A stretch of DNA of 64,000 nt from Wenzhouxiangella marina (GTDB lineage: Bacteria; Pseudomonadota; Gammaproteobacteria; Xanthomonadales; Wenzhouxiangellaceae): contig NZ_CP012154.1 of assembly GCF_001187785.1 (NCBI RefSeq), positions 1,296,501 through 1,360,500 of the forward strand. The letters are read 5' to 3'. Positions 138 to 46,825 of this stretch are shown piece by piece (position 1 is the first letter of the stretch; each line of letters begins with the position of its first letter). The notes under the pieces are model-generated. The model did no database searches and was not told the DNA's origin. It saw only the letters and a list, made by a program, of their open reading frames with translations. Made by a program: the position numbers and the translations under genes.

Positions 138-289
138 AACCGCAGATTTCGCAGATGGGCGCAGATTAACAGGCGCAAGAAATTGCAGGACTGGCGTCGG
201 AATGGGACCCGTGCTTCAAAACGATCTGAACCGCATGCATGGCAAATGCCTTCACTTTCGATCTGCGTGAATCTGCGCAATCCGCGGTT
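138..289. repeat. Hairpin micro-repeat element, family E (CGCAGATT), copy 1
   Basis: The left arm (138-170) has three imperfect CGCAGATT units about 9 nt apart. The right arm (about 260-289) has the complementary units GATCTGCGTGAATCTGCG and ends AATCCGCGGTT. The outer ends AACCGCAGATT and AATCCGCGGTT pair with one mismatch. The element fills the gap between liuD and liuC. A second copy lies at 1129-1280. Confidence 0.8.
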
Positions 290-1128: not shown

Positions 1129-1280
1129 AACCGCGGATTTCGCAGATTGACACAGATTGAAGAGGCAAAAACTCGATGGTCATGGCTGCGGTCAACCGCG
1201 GCAGTGCGAACGCATATGAAGTCGCCTTCCAGCCCAAAGACCTTTTCCTTTCATCTGTGCAAATCTGCGTAATCTGCGGT
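1129..1280. repeat. Hairpin micro-repeat element, family E, copy 2
   Basis: The left arm AACCGCGGATTT-CGCAGATTG-ACACAGATT starts at 1129. The right arm, from about 1252, reads ATCTGTGC-AAATCTGCGT-AATCTGCGGT. Arms are inverted and each is made of units about 9-10 nt long. The element lies between liuC and liuB, so family E copies bracket liuC. Confidence 0.8.
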
Positions 1281-7212: not shown

Positions 7213-7281
7213 AACCACGAAGGCACGAAGCTCACGAAGGATTGAAATCTTTTCTTCGTGCTCTTCGTGCCCTTCGTGGTT
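7213..7281. repeat. Hairpin micro-repeat element, family C (CACGAAGG), copy 1
   Basis: The left arm AACCACGAAGG-CACGAAG-CTCACGAAGG is inverted in the right arm CTTCGTGCT-CTTCGTGCC-CTTCGTGGTT, in units of about 9 nt. The arms differ at only a few positions. The right arm runs directly into TTTTTCTTT, so on the plus strand it would also work as an intrinsic terminator for pnp. Confidence 0.85.
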
Positions 7282-33850: not shown

Positions 33851-33962
33851 AACACGAAGCACACGAAGGAGGGCACGAAGGTCACGAAGAATGGATTCAA
33901 GTGGGGCAGCGTTCAGCGTCTTGCTTTCTTTTTCTTCGTGAATTCTTCGTGTCCTTCGTGTT
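33851..33962. repeat. Hairpin micro-repeat element, family C, copy 2
   Basis: The left arm AACACGAAGC-ACACGAAGG-AGGGCACGAAGG-TCACGAAG begins at 33851. The right arm TTCTTCGTGAAT-TCTTCGTGTCC-TTCGTGTT ends at 33962. It fills the acnD-prpF gap. Confidence 0.82.
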
Positions 33963-39901: not shown

Positions 39902-41866
<1,965 letters not shown>

Positions 41867-41870
41867 AAAT

Positions 41871-42047
41871 CCTTGAGTCGCTAAGCAGCGAAGCAGCGAA
41901 GAAAAAAAAAAAAGCAATTGAACGCGAAGACGCGAAGACGCCAAGAAAAAGAAAAGTGGGCTTTTTCCTTTCTTGGCGTGCTTCGCGTCTTCGCGTTGAA
42001 ATGTGTTTGCTTTTCTTCGCTGCTTTGCTGCTTCGCGATCTAAAGGT
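41871..42047. repeat. Composite hairpin: family A (GCAGCGAAG) outer arms, copy 1
   Basis: The left arm CCTTGAGTCGC-TAAGCAGC-GAAGCAGC-GAAG begins at 41871. The right arm CTTCGCTGC-TTTGCTGC-TTCGCGATC-TAAAGG ends near 42047. Units are 8 nt. A family B hairpin is nested inside. It lies between convergent genes. Confidence 0.85.
41918..42000. repeat. Family B (GACGCGAAG) hairpin nested in the family A element
   Basis: The left arm TTGAACGCGAAGA-CGCGAAGA-CGCCAAGAAA is mirrored by the right arm TTTCTTGGCGTGC-TTCGCGTC-TTCGCGTTGAA. Units are 8 nt. The loop is T-rich. Confidence 0.85.
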
Positions 42048-42069
42048 TCTCGATCGCTGAAATGAAGGT

Positions 42070-42486
42070 TCAGCGGCGGCCCTGGAGGCGGCGGCGGAGT
42101 TGGTTTCGGCGTTCGTTCTGGTAGACCATCCATTCGGCCATCTGCGCCTCGTCGAGAATCTCGGCCATGGCGACATTGGCCTGCTCCCAGACCGGCATCA
42201 GGGCGCTGGCCAGTTCGAACAGTTCCGTGCGCGAGGGGCGGGGCGCCGAACGGCTCGCGTTGGGGTTGATCCGAAGGCGCTCGAACACGGCCTGCTGCTC
42301 GACATGGTGCTGCGCCAGCACAGGCTCGACGGCAGCTGTCTGCTCCTCGCTCAGACCCAGCCGATCCTCCAGCACCGCCAGCGCCTCCAGATGCGGCGCT
42401 GTGCTCGTCCCATCAGAAGGCGTCGAAGCCATCCCAGGCGAGGCCAACGCAAACAGAGCAACAAGAAGGGTAGCTTTGAGGTTCAT
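42070..42486 (-). CDS. Spy/CpxP-like (LTXXQ-type) periplasmic protein
   Basis: The protein has 138 residues with signal peptide MNLKATLLVALFALASPGMA. The mature part is helical and contains LEDRLGLSEEQTAAVEPVLAQH and ILDEAQMAEWMVYQ, in the manner of the LTxxQ repeats of Spy/CpxP/ZraP small periplasmic chaperones or sensors. The Arg-rich tail ends LRRRLQGRR. The assignment is by pattern and moderate. Hairpin repeats crowd both flanks. Confidence 0.6.
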   Translation of the reverse strand: MNLKATLLVALFALASPGMASTPSDGTSTAPHLEALAVLEDRLGLSEEQTAAVEPVLAQHHVEQQAVFERLRINPNASRSAPRPSRTELFELASALMPVWEQANVAMAEILDEAQMAEWMVYQNERRNQLRRRLQGRR

Positions 42487-42567
42487 GCAACATCCCTCAG
42501 TCAGTCATTTGAAGCAGCAAGCATGCTCGCCCTGTCGCAAGTCTTCAAGTCCCCAAAATCAAAATCC

Positions 42568-42597
42568 TTGACGCGAAGACGCGAAGGGCGCTAAGGA
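42568..42597. repeat. Unpaired family B left arm
   Basis: CTTGACGCGAAGACGCGAAG followed by GGCGCTAAGG matches the left arm of family B. The nearest complementary arm is inside the next composite (about 42789-42806). Confidence 0.65.
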
Positions 42598-42680
42598 AAT
42601 GAAAAATCTTTGAATCACGCTCGGACATTTTCCATCCAGCCGCTTCTTGCCTCCGGCAAACCGCAGCTGGATTCCAAACT

Positions 42681-42878
42681 GAGCTAAGCAGCGAAGCAGC
42701 AAAGAAAATAAGGGAAAACAAAAAGCGAAAGCAAAAGGCTTTGATCGCCAAGACTCGAAGACACCAAGAAAGACGTGTTAGTGATTTTCTTTGCGTCTTC
42801 GCGTTAATGCTTTTGATTTTGCCTTTGCTCTTAATCCAGTTCCCTTTTCTTTCTTTGCTGCTTCGCTGCTTTGCGACC
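42681..42878. repeat. Composite hairpin: family A arms with degenerate family B core, copy 2
   Basis: The left arm GAGCTAAGCAGCGAAGCAGC at 42681 pairs with GCTGCTTCGCTGCTTTGCG ending at 42878. Inside, ATCGCCAAGACTCGAAGAC (from 42744) faces TTTGCGTCTTCGCGTTAAT (about 42790-42808). The inner arms have diverged more than in copy 1. Confidence 0.75.
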
Positions 42879-42930
42879 AGAAGATTTTGATTCAGAGGCC
42901 TTCCACTGAGTCGGAGCCCTGAAAGCGATT

Positions 42931-43014
42931 AACCACGAAGCACACGAAGGTCACGAAGTCGTAAAACAAAGAGGCTTCTTTCTTTTCTTCGTGCTCTTCG
43001 TGCCCTTCGTGGTT
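42931..43014. repeat. Hairpin micro-repeat element, family C, copy 3
   Basis: AACCACGAAGCACACGAAGG at 42931 pairs with CTTCGTGCCCTTCGTGGTT ending at 43014. It is followed by a family A right arm at about 43027-43053. Confidence 0.85.
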
Positions 43015-43068
43015 CAATCTCTTGTCTTTTCTTTGCTGCTTCGCTGCTTTGCGATTCAAAGGTTTTGC
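43001..43068. repeat. 68-nt direct repeat, copy 1 (partner 43217-43284)
   Basis: The segment joins the right arm of family C element 3 to a family A right arm. It differs from 43217-43284 at two positions over 68 nt. The pair is offset by 216 nt, indicating a recent local duplication. Confidence 0.85.
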
Positions 43069-43148
43069 TTCTGGATCTCCTGCAGTCGATCCAGGCGCGG
43101 TAGGTACTATCGTCTGGGGGATTGAGCTCAAAAACCCAAAACACCTTC

Positions 43149-43230
43149 ACCACGAAGGACACGAAGGGCACGAAGAAAAAAGAAGAGTATTTTGTTTTTC
43201 AACTTCGTGTTCTTCTTGCCCTTCGTGGTT
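43149..43230. repeat. Hairpin micro-repeat element, family C, copy 4
   Basis: ACCACGAAGGACACGAAGG at 43149 pairs with CCCTTCGTGGT ending at 43229, with TTCGTGTTCTTC between. It belongs to the duplicated C-plus-A unit and ends about 60 nt before the AddA-like stop codon. Confidence 0.83.
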
Positions 43231-43284
43231 CAATCTCTAGTCTTTTCTTTGCTGCTTCGCTGCTTTGCGATTTAAAGGTTTTGC
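43217..43284. repeat. 68-nt direct repeat, copy 2
   Basis: Near-identical copy of 43001-43068 (two mismatches), directly abutting the 3' end of the AddA-like gene. Confidence 0.85.
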
Positions 43285-43287
43285 CTT

Positions 43288-46200
43288 TCAAAGTTCCTCC
43301 AGCCGATCCAACCGCGGCAGGTACAGCGCGATGCGGACGTCGGTCTCGCCCATCTGCTCGAACAATCGCCGATACACGCTCAGCTGGTCGCGGTACTCCT
43401 CGGCCTCGTGTTGGAGAAACTCCTCGATCCGCTCGTCCTCGGCATGGCCTGACTTGTAGTCGATGATCCAGCGCACGCCCTGGGCATCGACGAAGGTGCG
43501 GTCGATCACGGCGTTGACCAGCTTGCCGTCGATCAGGCCGCTCAGAGCGAGTTCGCAGGCATGCTCCGGGTGCTCGCCGCTCAGGATCCAGCGACCCGTC
43601 TCCGAGCTCAGGGTGCGGTCGAGGGCCTGCTCGATCACCTCGACGGAAGCCTGCAGTTCGGCGCGGCCCGTGCCCATGGCCTGGAGCAGGCCGGGGATGC
43701 GGCTTTCGAGGCGGGCCAGGCGGACTTCGTCGAAGCGTTCGAGGCCGACTCGCCCGATGTCTTCCAGGATGCGATGGAGCACCGTGCCGATGCGGCGCGC
43801 CTGGGTGTTCTGCCAGCTGAATTCGATCTCGACGCTGCGCTCGCGCACGGGCAGGGCGGGGGTCCAGTCGAGCGTGGCCTCGAAGCTCGGTCGCCAGCCG
43901 GACTGCACTCGCTGACGCCGTGGCGCTGGGAAGACCACGTCGTCCGAGTCCGGGCCCAGCTCGGGGATGCGCTCCAGGGCTTCGCTGAAGGCTCGCAGGA
44001 ACTCGCCCTCGCAGTTCGGCCAGAGGCTGGCGAGCAGGCTGCCCGCGGCGGGCTTCTGGGCCTGCTTGTCCGGGTCGAGGACGGCGCTCAGGCAGAGGAA
44101 CTCCTTGGCCCGGGTGGCGGCGACGTAGAGCAGGCGCTGTTGCTCGTAGGCTTCCCGCTGCTTGCGCTGGTTGTTGATGAACTGGATCAGGGCCGTGTTG
44201 CTGGCCTGCTCGGCGGAACGCAGCGGGGCCAGCAGCACCTGCTCCTCGCCCGACTCGGGCGTGATCGGCAGCCAGTAGAGCAGCTCCTGGCTCGCGCCGC
44301 GCGGCGGGCGGTCCAGGCCGGGCAGGAACACCGCGTCCCACTCCAGGCCCTTGGCGCCGTGCATGGTCAGCACTTCCAGGCGTACCTCGTCGTCGGGCGG
44401 GTCGCCCTCGGTGGTCTGCTCGTCGAGCAGGGCCAGGAAGGCATTCCAGTCGTTCAACAGGCCCTCGTCCTCGGCCTGGGCGAGCACGTCGAGGAAGCGC
44501 TGTGCGTCGCGCTGCTCCGTCGGGCGGGCGCAGAGGATCTGCGGGCCACCGAGGCGCAGGAACAGGCCTTCGACCCGGTCGCGGACCGAGCGACGTCCTC
44601 GCAGTCCATAGGCCGCCTCGATGCCGGCGTAGACCGGCTCGGCGCGTTCCCGATCCTCCGGGCTCAGGCGGTCGAGGGCGTCATCGTCCAGCGGGTCCTT
44701 GCCGTCCCCGGCCAGCGCATGCAGTGCCTTCAGGCTGAGACCGCACAAGGGCGAGCGCAGCAGGGCCAGGCGCGCGGACGGGTGGGCCGGGTCGATCACC
44801 AGGCGGGTGATCGACAGCAGGTCCTGGGCCACGGGCCGCTGCAGCAGAGGGTCGAGCTTGACGGCCCGGTAGCGCACGCCGTGGCGGGCCAGGGCCGGCA
44901 GCAGCTCGCTCAGGTGCGAGCGGGCGCGCACGATCACCGCGGCCTTGAAGTCGTCCTTGCCCTGGTTGGCCTCCAGCGTGTCCCGGATGCGCGCGGCCAG
45001 GGCCTCGGCCTCCTGCACGCGGTCGATCTCGGCCAGCACTTCGACGCGACCGCCCGGCTCCCGCGCGGGTTCGGAGGGCGCGTAGCGGACCGCGCCGGCG
45101 GCCATGTTCTCGATCGACGGAAAGGCCGGGCCGATGCGCTCGTTGACCCACTCGACGATCTCGGCGCGGGAACGGAAGTTGCGCGTCAGCTGAGCGGATT
45201 CGAGGGTCTGCGCGCCGATGCCCTGGTCGCGGGTCCGCATGAACAGGCCGACCTCGGCTTCTCGGAACCTGTAGATCGACTGCATCGGATCGCCGACCAG
45301 AAACAGGCTGCGATGGCTTTGCTGCTCGCCTTCGCCCGCCCAGCCGGCGACCAGCTTCTCGAGCAGGTGGAACTGGCCCCAGTTCGTGTCCTGGTACTCG
45401 TCGACCAGGATGTGGTCGATGCGCTGGTCCAGGTACAGGGCCAGGTCGCTGTAGCCGTCCTCCTCGTTGCCCAGACCGCGCTGAGCCGCGTCGCCCAGGG
45501 CCGCGAAGTCGCTCTTGCCGCGCTCGGCGAACAGCAGGTCCAGTTCGGCGGCGGCCTGTTTCAGGACGCGGATCAGGGCGGCCAGCACCGGCCATTCGCC
45601 GGGGCCGAACTCAGGGACAGGCAGCTCGCGGGCCTGGTGCAGCAGGTCCGCCAGCTCCTCGTTGCCGGTCCACTGTTCGAGCAGGGCTTCCATCGCCGCC
45701 TTGTGCTCGGACTTGGGCGGAAAGCCGTAGTTCTTGTTCAGGCTGGCCCGCCAGGTCCCGCCATTGGTCAGCAGGGCAAAGCCGAGCATTCGCCAGCCGT
45801 CGAGCTCGGCGGGGTTCGGGGCCGGCAGGCGGCGGTAATCGCTCCAGTCGGCGAAGGGCGTGGGCTTGGCCAGGTCGGCCGCGCAGGCGGCGGCCTCGCT
45901 CAGAACGGCGAGCAGGGCCTGCTCGCTCATGCCCGCCTGGGCCAGGGCCTGCTGGAGCGCGGTGCTGGCGCGTCTCAGTTGCTCGCTGACCAGGTCATGC
46001 AGGGTGGCCTCGAAGGCGGCCTGTTCGACGGGCTCGATCCGGCCGATGGCGCGCAGCCACTGCTCGCGCTGGCCGAGCAGGCTCATCAGCAAGGCTTCGA
46101 TGTCCTGGGTACGGTGATCGCGCCACTTCAGCAGGCGGGCCAGGTCTTCGCTGAGCGCTTCCTCGTCGTTCAGGCGCGCCAGGATCCGGCGCGCGGCCTC

Positions 46201-46672: not shown

Positions 46673-46825
46673 GTTCACCACAGAGGCACGCGTGGCCGCT
46701 TTCCAGTCAAAGGCTTTATGCCTGCGGCAGCCCGCCATTGACTTACAAGCTACGCTGAGTTCACGGAGAAGAGCAGAAGAAAATTCATCGTTTCTTCTCT
46801 GTGTACTCCGTGCCTCTGTGGTGAA
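46673..46825. repeat. Hairpin micro-repeat element, family D (CACAGAGG)
   Basis: The perfect outer arms GTTCACCACAGAGGCACG (46673-46690) and CGTGCCTCTGTGGTGAAC (46808-46825) enclose an inner pair: CACGGAGAAGAGCAGAAGAAA against TTTCTTCTCTGTGTACTCCG. It lies between the AddB-like and AddA-like genes. Confidence 0.85.

Follow-up and report, generated by a model that had tools for sequence, protein, structure and literature searches.

The micro-repeat hairpins between the genes of the window, by which we mean the whole 64-kb stretch of Wenzhouxiangella marina DNA analysed here, are probably gene-less short members and termini of small discrete elements, whose protein would act on the arms and so enable copying or insertion. 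We conclude from sequence comparison that the class comprises selfish mobile elements plus gene-less derivatives, with the protein as the presumed agent of movement. A full-length element would consist of a left arm of tandem 8–10-nt units, a gene of the GxxExxY family and then the inverted array; full-length copies in the W. marina genome span about 0.4–0.65 kb. A parallel branch would carry the gene of a four-helix-bundle protein, of the 23S rRNA intervening sequence (IVS) family, and units of 7 nt. This is apparently an undescribed kind of small DNA element, present in many bacterial phyla and in archaea. The evidence computed below is the association of the gene with the arms, the identity of left and right units, the match of unit to protein clade, presence and absence among congeners, co-orientation with neighbours and, in several pairs, homology that stops near the arms.

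The original prediction described five hairpin families in the window, A to E, with correct sequences and coordinates. Folded as RNA, each of nine window hairpins was more stable than all 200 of its dinucleotide shuffles (z −3.2 to −13.5). The units also lie far above reversed-pattern controls: in the 3.675-Mb genome the C unit CACGAAGNNCACGAAG gave 30 + 30 matches (control 0 + 0), the A unit AAGCAGCRAAGCAGCRAAG 11 + 10 (control 0) and the E unit GCAGATTNNGCAGATT 6 + 5 (control 0). Genome-wide counts were made for A, C and E, with D uncounted, and C is the commonest among those counted. The window hairpins are thereby confirmed as real, far beyond chance. The elements read in the window are listed here, with no strand assigned to any of them.

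138..289: E element, GCAGAT units, spacer of about 100 nt; z −3.2; adjoins the 3′ end of an enoyl-CoA hydratase family gene.
1129..1280: E element; z −5.5 (1129–1277 folded); between enoyl-CoA hydratase family and carboxyl transferase genes, same strand.
7213..7281: C hairpin, CACGAAG units; z −9.9; downstream of pnp (polyribonucleotide nucleotidyltransferase).
33851..33962: C hairpin; z −6.8; between acnD and prpF, same strand.
41866..42052: A hairpin with a B hairpin nested in it; z −13.5.
About 42566..42586: lone B left arm, GACGCGAAG units.
42681..42878: A hairpin, nested B degenerate; z −8.1.
42931..43014: C hairpin; z −7.3.
43022..43070: A end; 48 nt of it share 93.8% identity with one terminus of L156, a GxxExxY element.
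43149..43230: C hairpin within a locally duplicated stretch; z −9.2.
43238..43289: another A end; 90% identity with an L156 terminus along 50 nt.
46673..46825: D element, ACAGAG/ACGGAG units, left arm degenerate; z −8.8; between AddA-like helicase and TIGR03623/AddB-like genes, same strand.

As had been predicted, ORFs and domains place these elements in co-directional gaps, with one convergent case (41871) and no divergent one; in this check ORF 42070–42486 gave no family match, and the ORF immediately following 7281 lay outside the domain scan.

The five families reduce to a simpler anatomy, in which a 6-nt core recurs every 8–10 nt. C, D and E have the cores ACGAAG, ACAGAG and GCAGAT respectively, each with about 3 nt more and so a 9–10-nt period; the C, D and E elements begin with ACC and end with GGT. 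A and B have the core GCGAAG in common, and their 8-nt period comes from spacers of 2 nt (CA or AC). The predicted plan of direct units inverted in the two arms holds; the T-rich or pyrimidine-rich loop does not extend to D and the two E elements, whose spacers have a mixed sequence and a length of about 100 nt, and in D the left arm has degenerated to a single intact CACAGAG. The region 42554–43284 holds as extras one lone B left arm and two A ends, and within it 42976–43068 and 43192–43284 are 90% alike, which looks like a local duplication including a gene 3′ end.

Some local arrangements were noted as well. A elements are clustered, four of them within 12 kb at genome positions 2632266–2644145 (L393), one being the GxxExxY-bearing copy, and several A ends fall within 1.4 kb at window 41866–43289, as if spread were local. 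Three consecutive E elements occupy genome positions 1099665–1100718 (L141, 2166–3218); the last two have a near-identical unit of ∼370 nt in common, with no evident gene. A non-repeat stretch ending in CCAAACTGAGCTAAGCAGCG is common to window 42615–42690 and to L394 at about 800–1000, upstream of A arms, and is perhaps a further element end.

The original interpretation is supported in part, in its shared plan, wide environmental spread and guess at mobility; what it missed is the GxxExxY gene between the arms of longer copies outside the window. The W. marina genome contains three such genes (132.5–156.4 bits to TIGR04256), and all three lie between inverted micro-repeat arms. In an E element at 2916.3–2916.8 kb, the ORF between the arms matches TIGR04256 GxxExxY (1.4e-43; 147.9 bits, against a curated cut-off of 35 bits) and PF13366 PDDEXK_3 (1e-40). 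This element sits between sufB and sufC, and a second, with D-type arms, in the nuoM–nuoN gap; suf and nuo are what we take these genes to be from reading of their protein sequences. The third gene has A/B-type arms (L156, 2639.7–2640.3 kb). The ends of L156 match the window A hairpins at 84–94% at best, with other matches at 72–91%; the 80 nt at window 41866–41945, the left end of an A hairpin, match the left end of L156 at 84%, and 48–50 nt at 43023–43070 and 43240–43289 match at 94% and 90%. The gene in longer copies outside the window thus ties A, B, D and E to one kind of protein. C is tied to it only in other genomes (e.g. L158, L169, L174), the W. marina genome having no ACGAAG-armed GxxExxY gene. 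Scanned against Pfam and NCBIfam, the ORF of one W. marina copy matched PF13366 and TIGR04256 only, and no known transposase class (DDE, HUH, serine or tyrosine).

Among 39 aligned GxxExxY proteins, residues G19, E22, Y25, D62 and K74 are invariant and E72 nearly so; over 126 rows the active-site D is conserved at 100%, E at 94% and K at 99%. The conserved D...E-x-K argues for GxxExxY being a live nuclease. Sites of the PD-(D/E)XK type are typical of DNA nucleases, and Rpn and TnsA, which also belong to the PD-(D/E)XK proteins, have roles in recombination. A single-sequence AlphaFold model of GxxExxY was useless (pLDDT 40.6), and a sequence search for solved relatives gave none at E ≤ 1 from one sequence and one match at E 0.25 from a profile.

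Association of gene and arms was scored at 122 GxxExxY loci, a subset of the matches in our searches, made up of 32 from the W. marina genome and its phylum, 30 from genomes holding the hairpins and 60 fetched from both groups. A locus passed when its inverted arms scored above the 99th percentile of Markov shuffles. By this test 105 of the 122 have arms (26/32 and 13/16 in the sets from the own phylum, 66/74 in hairpin genomes), against 1 of 54 displaced windows and 2 of 152 other ORFs. Some of the 17 loci that fail, e.g. L159, L163, L166, L170 and L262, have arms that the eye can make out but that score under the threshold. Pairing the arms of different loci was tried as a control and rejected as inflated, many loci having units in common. 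The best arm period is 8–10 nt in 98 of the 105, and the majority 6-mers of left and right arms agree in 59 of 67 loci (shuffled mean 6.9, maximum 17). Beyond the 122, the test was passed by two of six plasmid copies (from eight records) and by all five copies on viral-classed contigs. At L078 (3671–4230), and also at L238, L269 and L289, a complete short hairpin stands on each side of the GxxExxY gene, a composite-like arrangement. A de-novo scan of L018–L133 for ORF-bearing elements of any unit, under criteria that proved too strict, gave one weak case.

The repeat unit differs from locus to locus; words found include ACGAAG, ACAGAG, GCAGAT, GCAAAG, ACGGAA and ACAGAC. On a tree of 99 of the proteins, built from a short alignment and with many weak forks, the sixth core letter changes 7 times, against 30.8 when shuffled, and none of 200 shuffles was as low; 20 of the 122 loci had no callable unit, and three more proteins, below 90 aa, were left out. 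The misfits are L284, a T unit within the G group, and L290, a G unit among T/A rows. Both main classes occur in the W. marina genome. That the unit follows the protein tree is explicable by linkage alone, without recognition.

Gene and hairpin also co-occur by genome. Of 49 searched genomes that have CACRRAG hairpins, 40 encode GxxExxY, versus 33 of 200 drawn from the own phylum, W. marina included (Fisher p 9e-18, the two sets not being phylum-matched). By title, the nine hairpin genomes without it are seven MAGs, one Burkholderiaceae assembly and the isolate Endozoicomonas elysicola. The C plan was present in 8 of 299 genomes of the own-phylum draw, W. marina included, the remaining seven coming from another class; five of these seven are GxxExxY-positive (G025, G048, G092, G124, G160), and G230 and G272 are absent from the positive list, perhaps as undrawn genomes.

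More widely, the pattern of C, D and related units, searched in one genome per species, gave at least 116 stretches; among the 116 matches listed, 67 have the same two variable letters throughout their four units. Sources among 80 of them include Acidobacteria, Planctomycetes, Chloroflexi, Desulfobacterales, Bacteroidetes and Verrucomicrobia, and further Gemmatimonadetes, Nitrospirae, Spirochaetia, Calditrichaeota and archaea, in support of the wide environmental spread originally stated. The GxxExxY pattern matched none of 50,697 phage records and 8 of 72,556 plasmid records, and 5 of 32 pattern matches on viral contigs were confirmed as GxxExxY loci; phage or plasmid carriage does not look like the main route. 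The five genes on viral-classed contigs are L382–L386 (IMG/VR); L384 and L385 have arms of AT-rich 11-nt repeats in inverted order.

The four-helix-bundle branch was found through PF05635, the family of the 23S rRNA IVS protein, which occurs in 25 of 36 chosen genomes and has no match in that of W. marina. Inverted arms flank 24 of 30 PF05635 loci, with a period of 7 nt in 23 of the 24. Several congener hairpins in the sufB–sufC gap (GGTTTCC, GGTTCAG and AAATAGT units) also have a 7-nt step by eye.

Copies have discrete ends. In at least three pairs with unrelated flanks (L236/L281, L223/L224, L221/L229), BLAST finds likeness only about from arm to arm; L236 and L281, from one archaeal genome (Methanosarcinales record L071), are 90% identical over 501 bp. 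Discrete ends, a trait of IS and MITE elements, are thus present, homology between copies stopping at the terminal repeats in the three pairs. In the nuoM–nuoN gap of 11 congeners, L198 included, the element is absent from six (L187, L188, L189, L192, L194, L198); among the others, L193 has a GxxExxY element, L195 and L196 gene-less hairpins of other units, and L190 and L191 partial remains. Such presence and absence, with different repeat families in one gap, supports the original guess at a mobile process; neither this nor Rfam, of which no family reaches its gathering score in the 64-kb window (0 matches), gave the outcome that the original proposal named as its refutation. A target-site duplication was not readable in nuoM–nuoN, where filled and empty sites are too diverged, and no excised form came to light. 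At window 41871–43284 itself, the S9 peptidase gene is followed by no element in the three closest congeners; a different gene comes next, so this is not a clean empty site.

The sufB–sufC gap is a hot spot. All 12 readable congeners have a hairpin there (nine by arm score, three by eye), with units that vary between species; L337 and L348 end at a contig edge, and L343 is cut inside the right arm. A gap filled in 12 of 12 fits also selection for a hairpin at that place. In two of the 12 (L345, L349) it is a plain palindrome without micro-repeats, GTAGGTCGGGG...CCCCGACCTAC, and a related palindrome lies within a W. marina C element (L150). In another class the same gap holds GxxExxY genes with ACAAAG arms (L167) or ACGAAG arms (L163, whose arm score did not reach the threshold). 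Elsewhere in the order, in other families, the gap is 0–38 nt and empty in L412, L416, L418, L419 and L423, and has repeats in L398, L406, L408 and L415; a GGGGTCAGAGTAA repeat or hairpin is seen there in L398 and L422.

Other recurrent neighbours are presumably trp, pyrB–pyrC, hisC, ileS and metal-ABC genes, as read from their proteins; annotated neighbours include fabD–fabG on a Sphingomonas plasmid. Neighbour orientation at 77 classified loci was ++ in 43, +− in 17, −+ in 14 and −− in 3, counting one locus per recurrent site at an arm score above 15, with the longest ORF as proxy for the gene and four unclear and two short loci left out. Adjacent genes are likewise co-directional with the GxxExxY gene in four plasmid records with annotation.

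These observations suggest a mechanism in which the arms are probably the site of protein action. The protein would recognise the arm units as tandem binding sites, their cruciform or hairpin, or both; it would cut DNA at the arms, and the element could then be copied or inserted into intergenic gaps. A spacing of about one helical turn between tandem sites is well matched to a protein that binds DNA as a multimer, and inverted arrays can extrude cruciforms. Loss of the gene would leave short hairpins that may be movable in trans, and a stable RNA hairpin might make insertion inside an operon tolerable. A bolder version, to which we give somewhat less than an even chance, is a mobile class crossing domains in which a small PD-(D/E)XK protein would read tandem 6–7-nt words in its own arms, the words diversifying along with the protein.

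An unlikely alternative is that these are selfish elements at the RNA level, similar to 23S rRNA IVS, with arms that pair in the transcript and are clipped or trimmed by RNase III, spread via RNA and a protein serving as RNA-binding helper. Both kinds are about 0.4 kb, with terminal inverted repeats, one small ORF, a stable RNA stem and a patchy, presumably horizontal spread; the four-helix-bundle branch has the same plan and is the same family (PF05635). The very stable RNA folds and the excess of ++ over −− neighbours (43 versus 3) point the same way, as does the Coxiella IVS, which is 428 nt long, with terminal inverted repeats forming a 28-bp stem, an S23p ORF and cutting by RNase III (PMC4990558). 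The elements here differ in their tandem 7–10-nt arm units, mainly PDDEXK_3 protein and many gene-less hairpins. IVS sit in rRNA helices 9, 25 or 45, whereas the copies read in the window and the W. marina genome lie between protein genes, and the site conserved in GxxExxY is, from knowledge of the family, of a type typical of DNA nucleases. A PF05635 ORF between inverted repeats, which would define an IVS, occurs at the 24 of 30 loci in other genomes; the W. marina ORFs are GxxExxY. Movement by a Y1 tyrosine transposase encoded elsewhere, as in REP/REPIN–RAYT (TnpA-REP) systems, is very unlikely. The logic is shared, many short intergenic gene-less palindromes beside few coding copies, a hairpin plan and probable movement in trans, and the micro-repeat-free palindromes of L345 and L349 fit it; yet the genes between the arms encode PDDEXK_3 or four-helix-bundle proteins and not Y1 (HUH) transposases, the three W. 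marina copies being TIGR04256, and the arms are arrays of 8–10-nt units with a nuclease-family gene inside the palindrome. The elements resemble rRNA IVS and REPIN/RAYT in part, and lack defining features of both where tested.

It is also distinctly improbable that the hairpins are functional terminators, attenuators or mRNA 3′-end stabilisers under selection, with the genes between their arms as passengers. Stable folds, positions downstream of genes and the hairpin of some kind in every readable congener sufB–sufC gap are as that explanation would have them. Several copies, however, lie within the nuo, suf, prp and acyl-CoA gene runs of W. marina, so that a terminator or stabiliser role fits poorly, a secondary role being possible; six of the 11 congeners lack an element in nuoM–nuoN, tandem units and a conserved nuclease-family gene are both superfluous for a terminator, and homology ending at the arms is left unexplained. 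Least credible of all is that local replication slippage and quasi-palindrome correction make and maintain the repeats with no movement. Tandem units with inverted copies are the expected products of slippage and template switching, and left and right units do agree, but identical units in many phyla and archaea, the association with two protein families and arm-to-arm homology across unrelated sites all stand against it.

The preferred reading, of discrete elements with a protein acting on their arms, shares features with other known systems. Like MITEs, the short forms are non-autonomous and have the ends of a longer coding element; unlike them, they end in arrays of micro-repeats, no transposase is recognised in the coding element, and no target duplication was read. 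Homing endonuclease genes use one allelic site per enzyme, in homologous genes, whereas these elements occupy many unrelated sites, yet sufB–sufC is reused in two classes. The TAACTGA repeats of Beggiatoaceae are likewise short tandem units between genes, common to distant lineages; they are direct repeats that mostly lie just ahead of start codons, with one inverted case only, and are not reported to have a gene inside the repeat element (PMC4679880). No description of the present elements, by unit motif or as GxxExxY, PF13366, PDDEXK_3 or TIGR04256, was found in the open-licence PMC literature, most subscription papers falling outside that search.

Repeats of the CACGAAG, CACAGAG and CGCAGATT types recur in environmental genomes of many phyla, and no name or cause was found for them; if the preferred reading is true, these unnamed repeats would be explained. 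Once linked to GxxExxY, a repeat without a name becomes an element that has ends, a gene and an enzyme open to testing, and this family of unknown function gains its first functional hypothesis. The class would then be a natural set of matched nuclease–site pairs, and the match of clade to word could let the recognition rule be derived from sequence. The recurrence of this plan with the 23S rRNA IVS protein suggests that hairpin elements form a broader group, in which rRNA intervening sequences occupy one corner.
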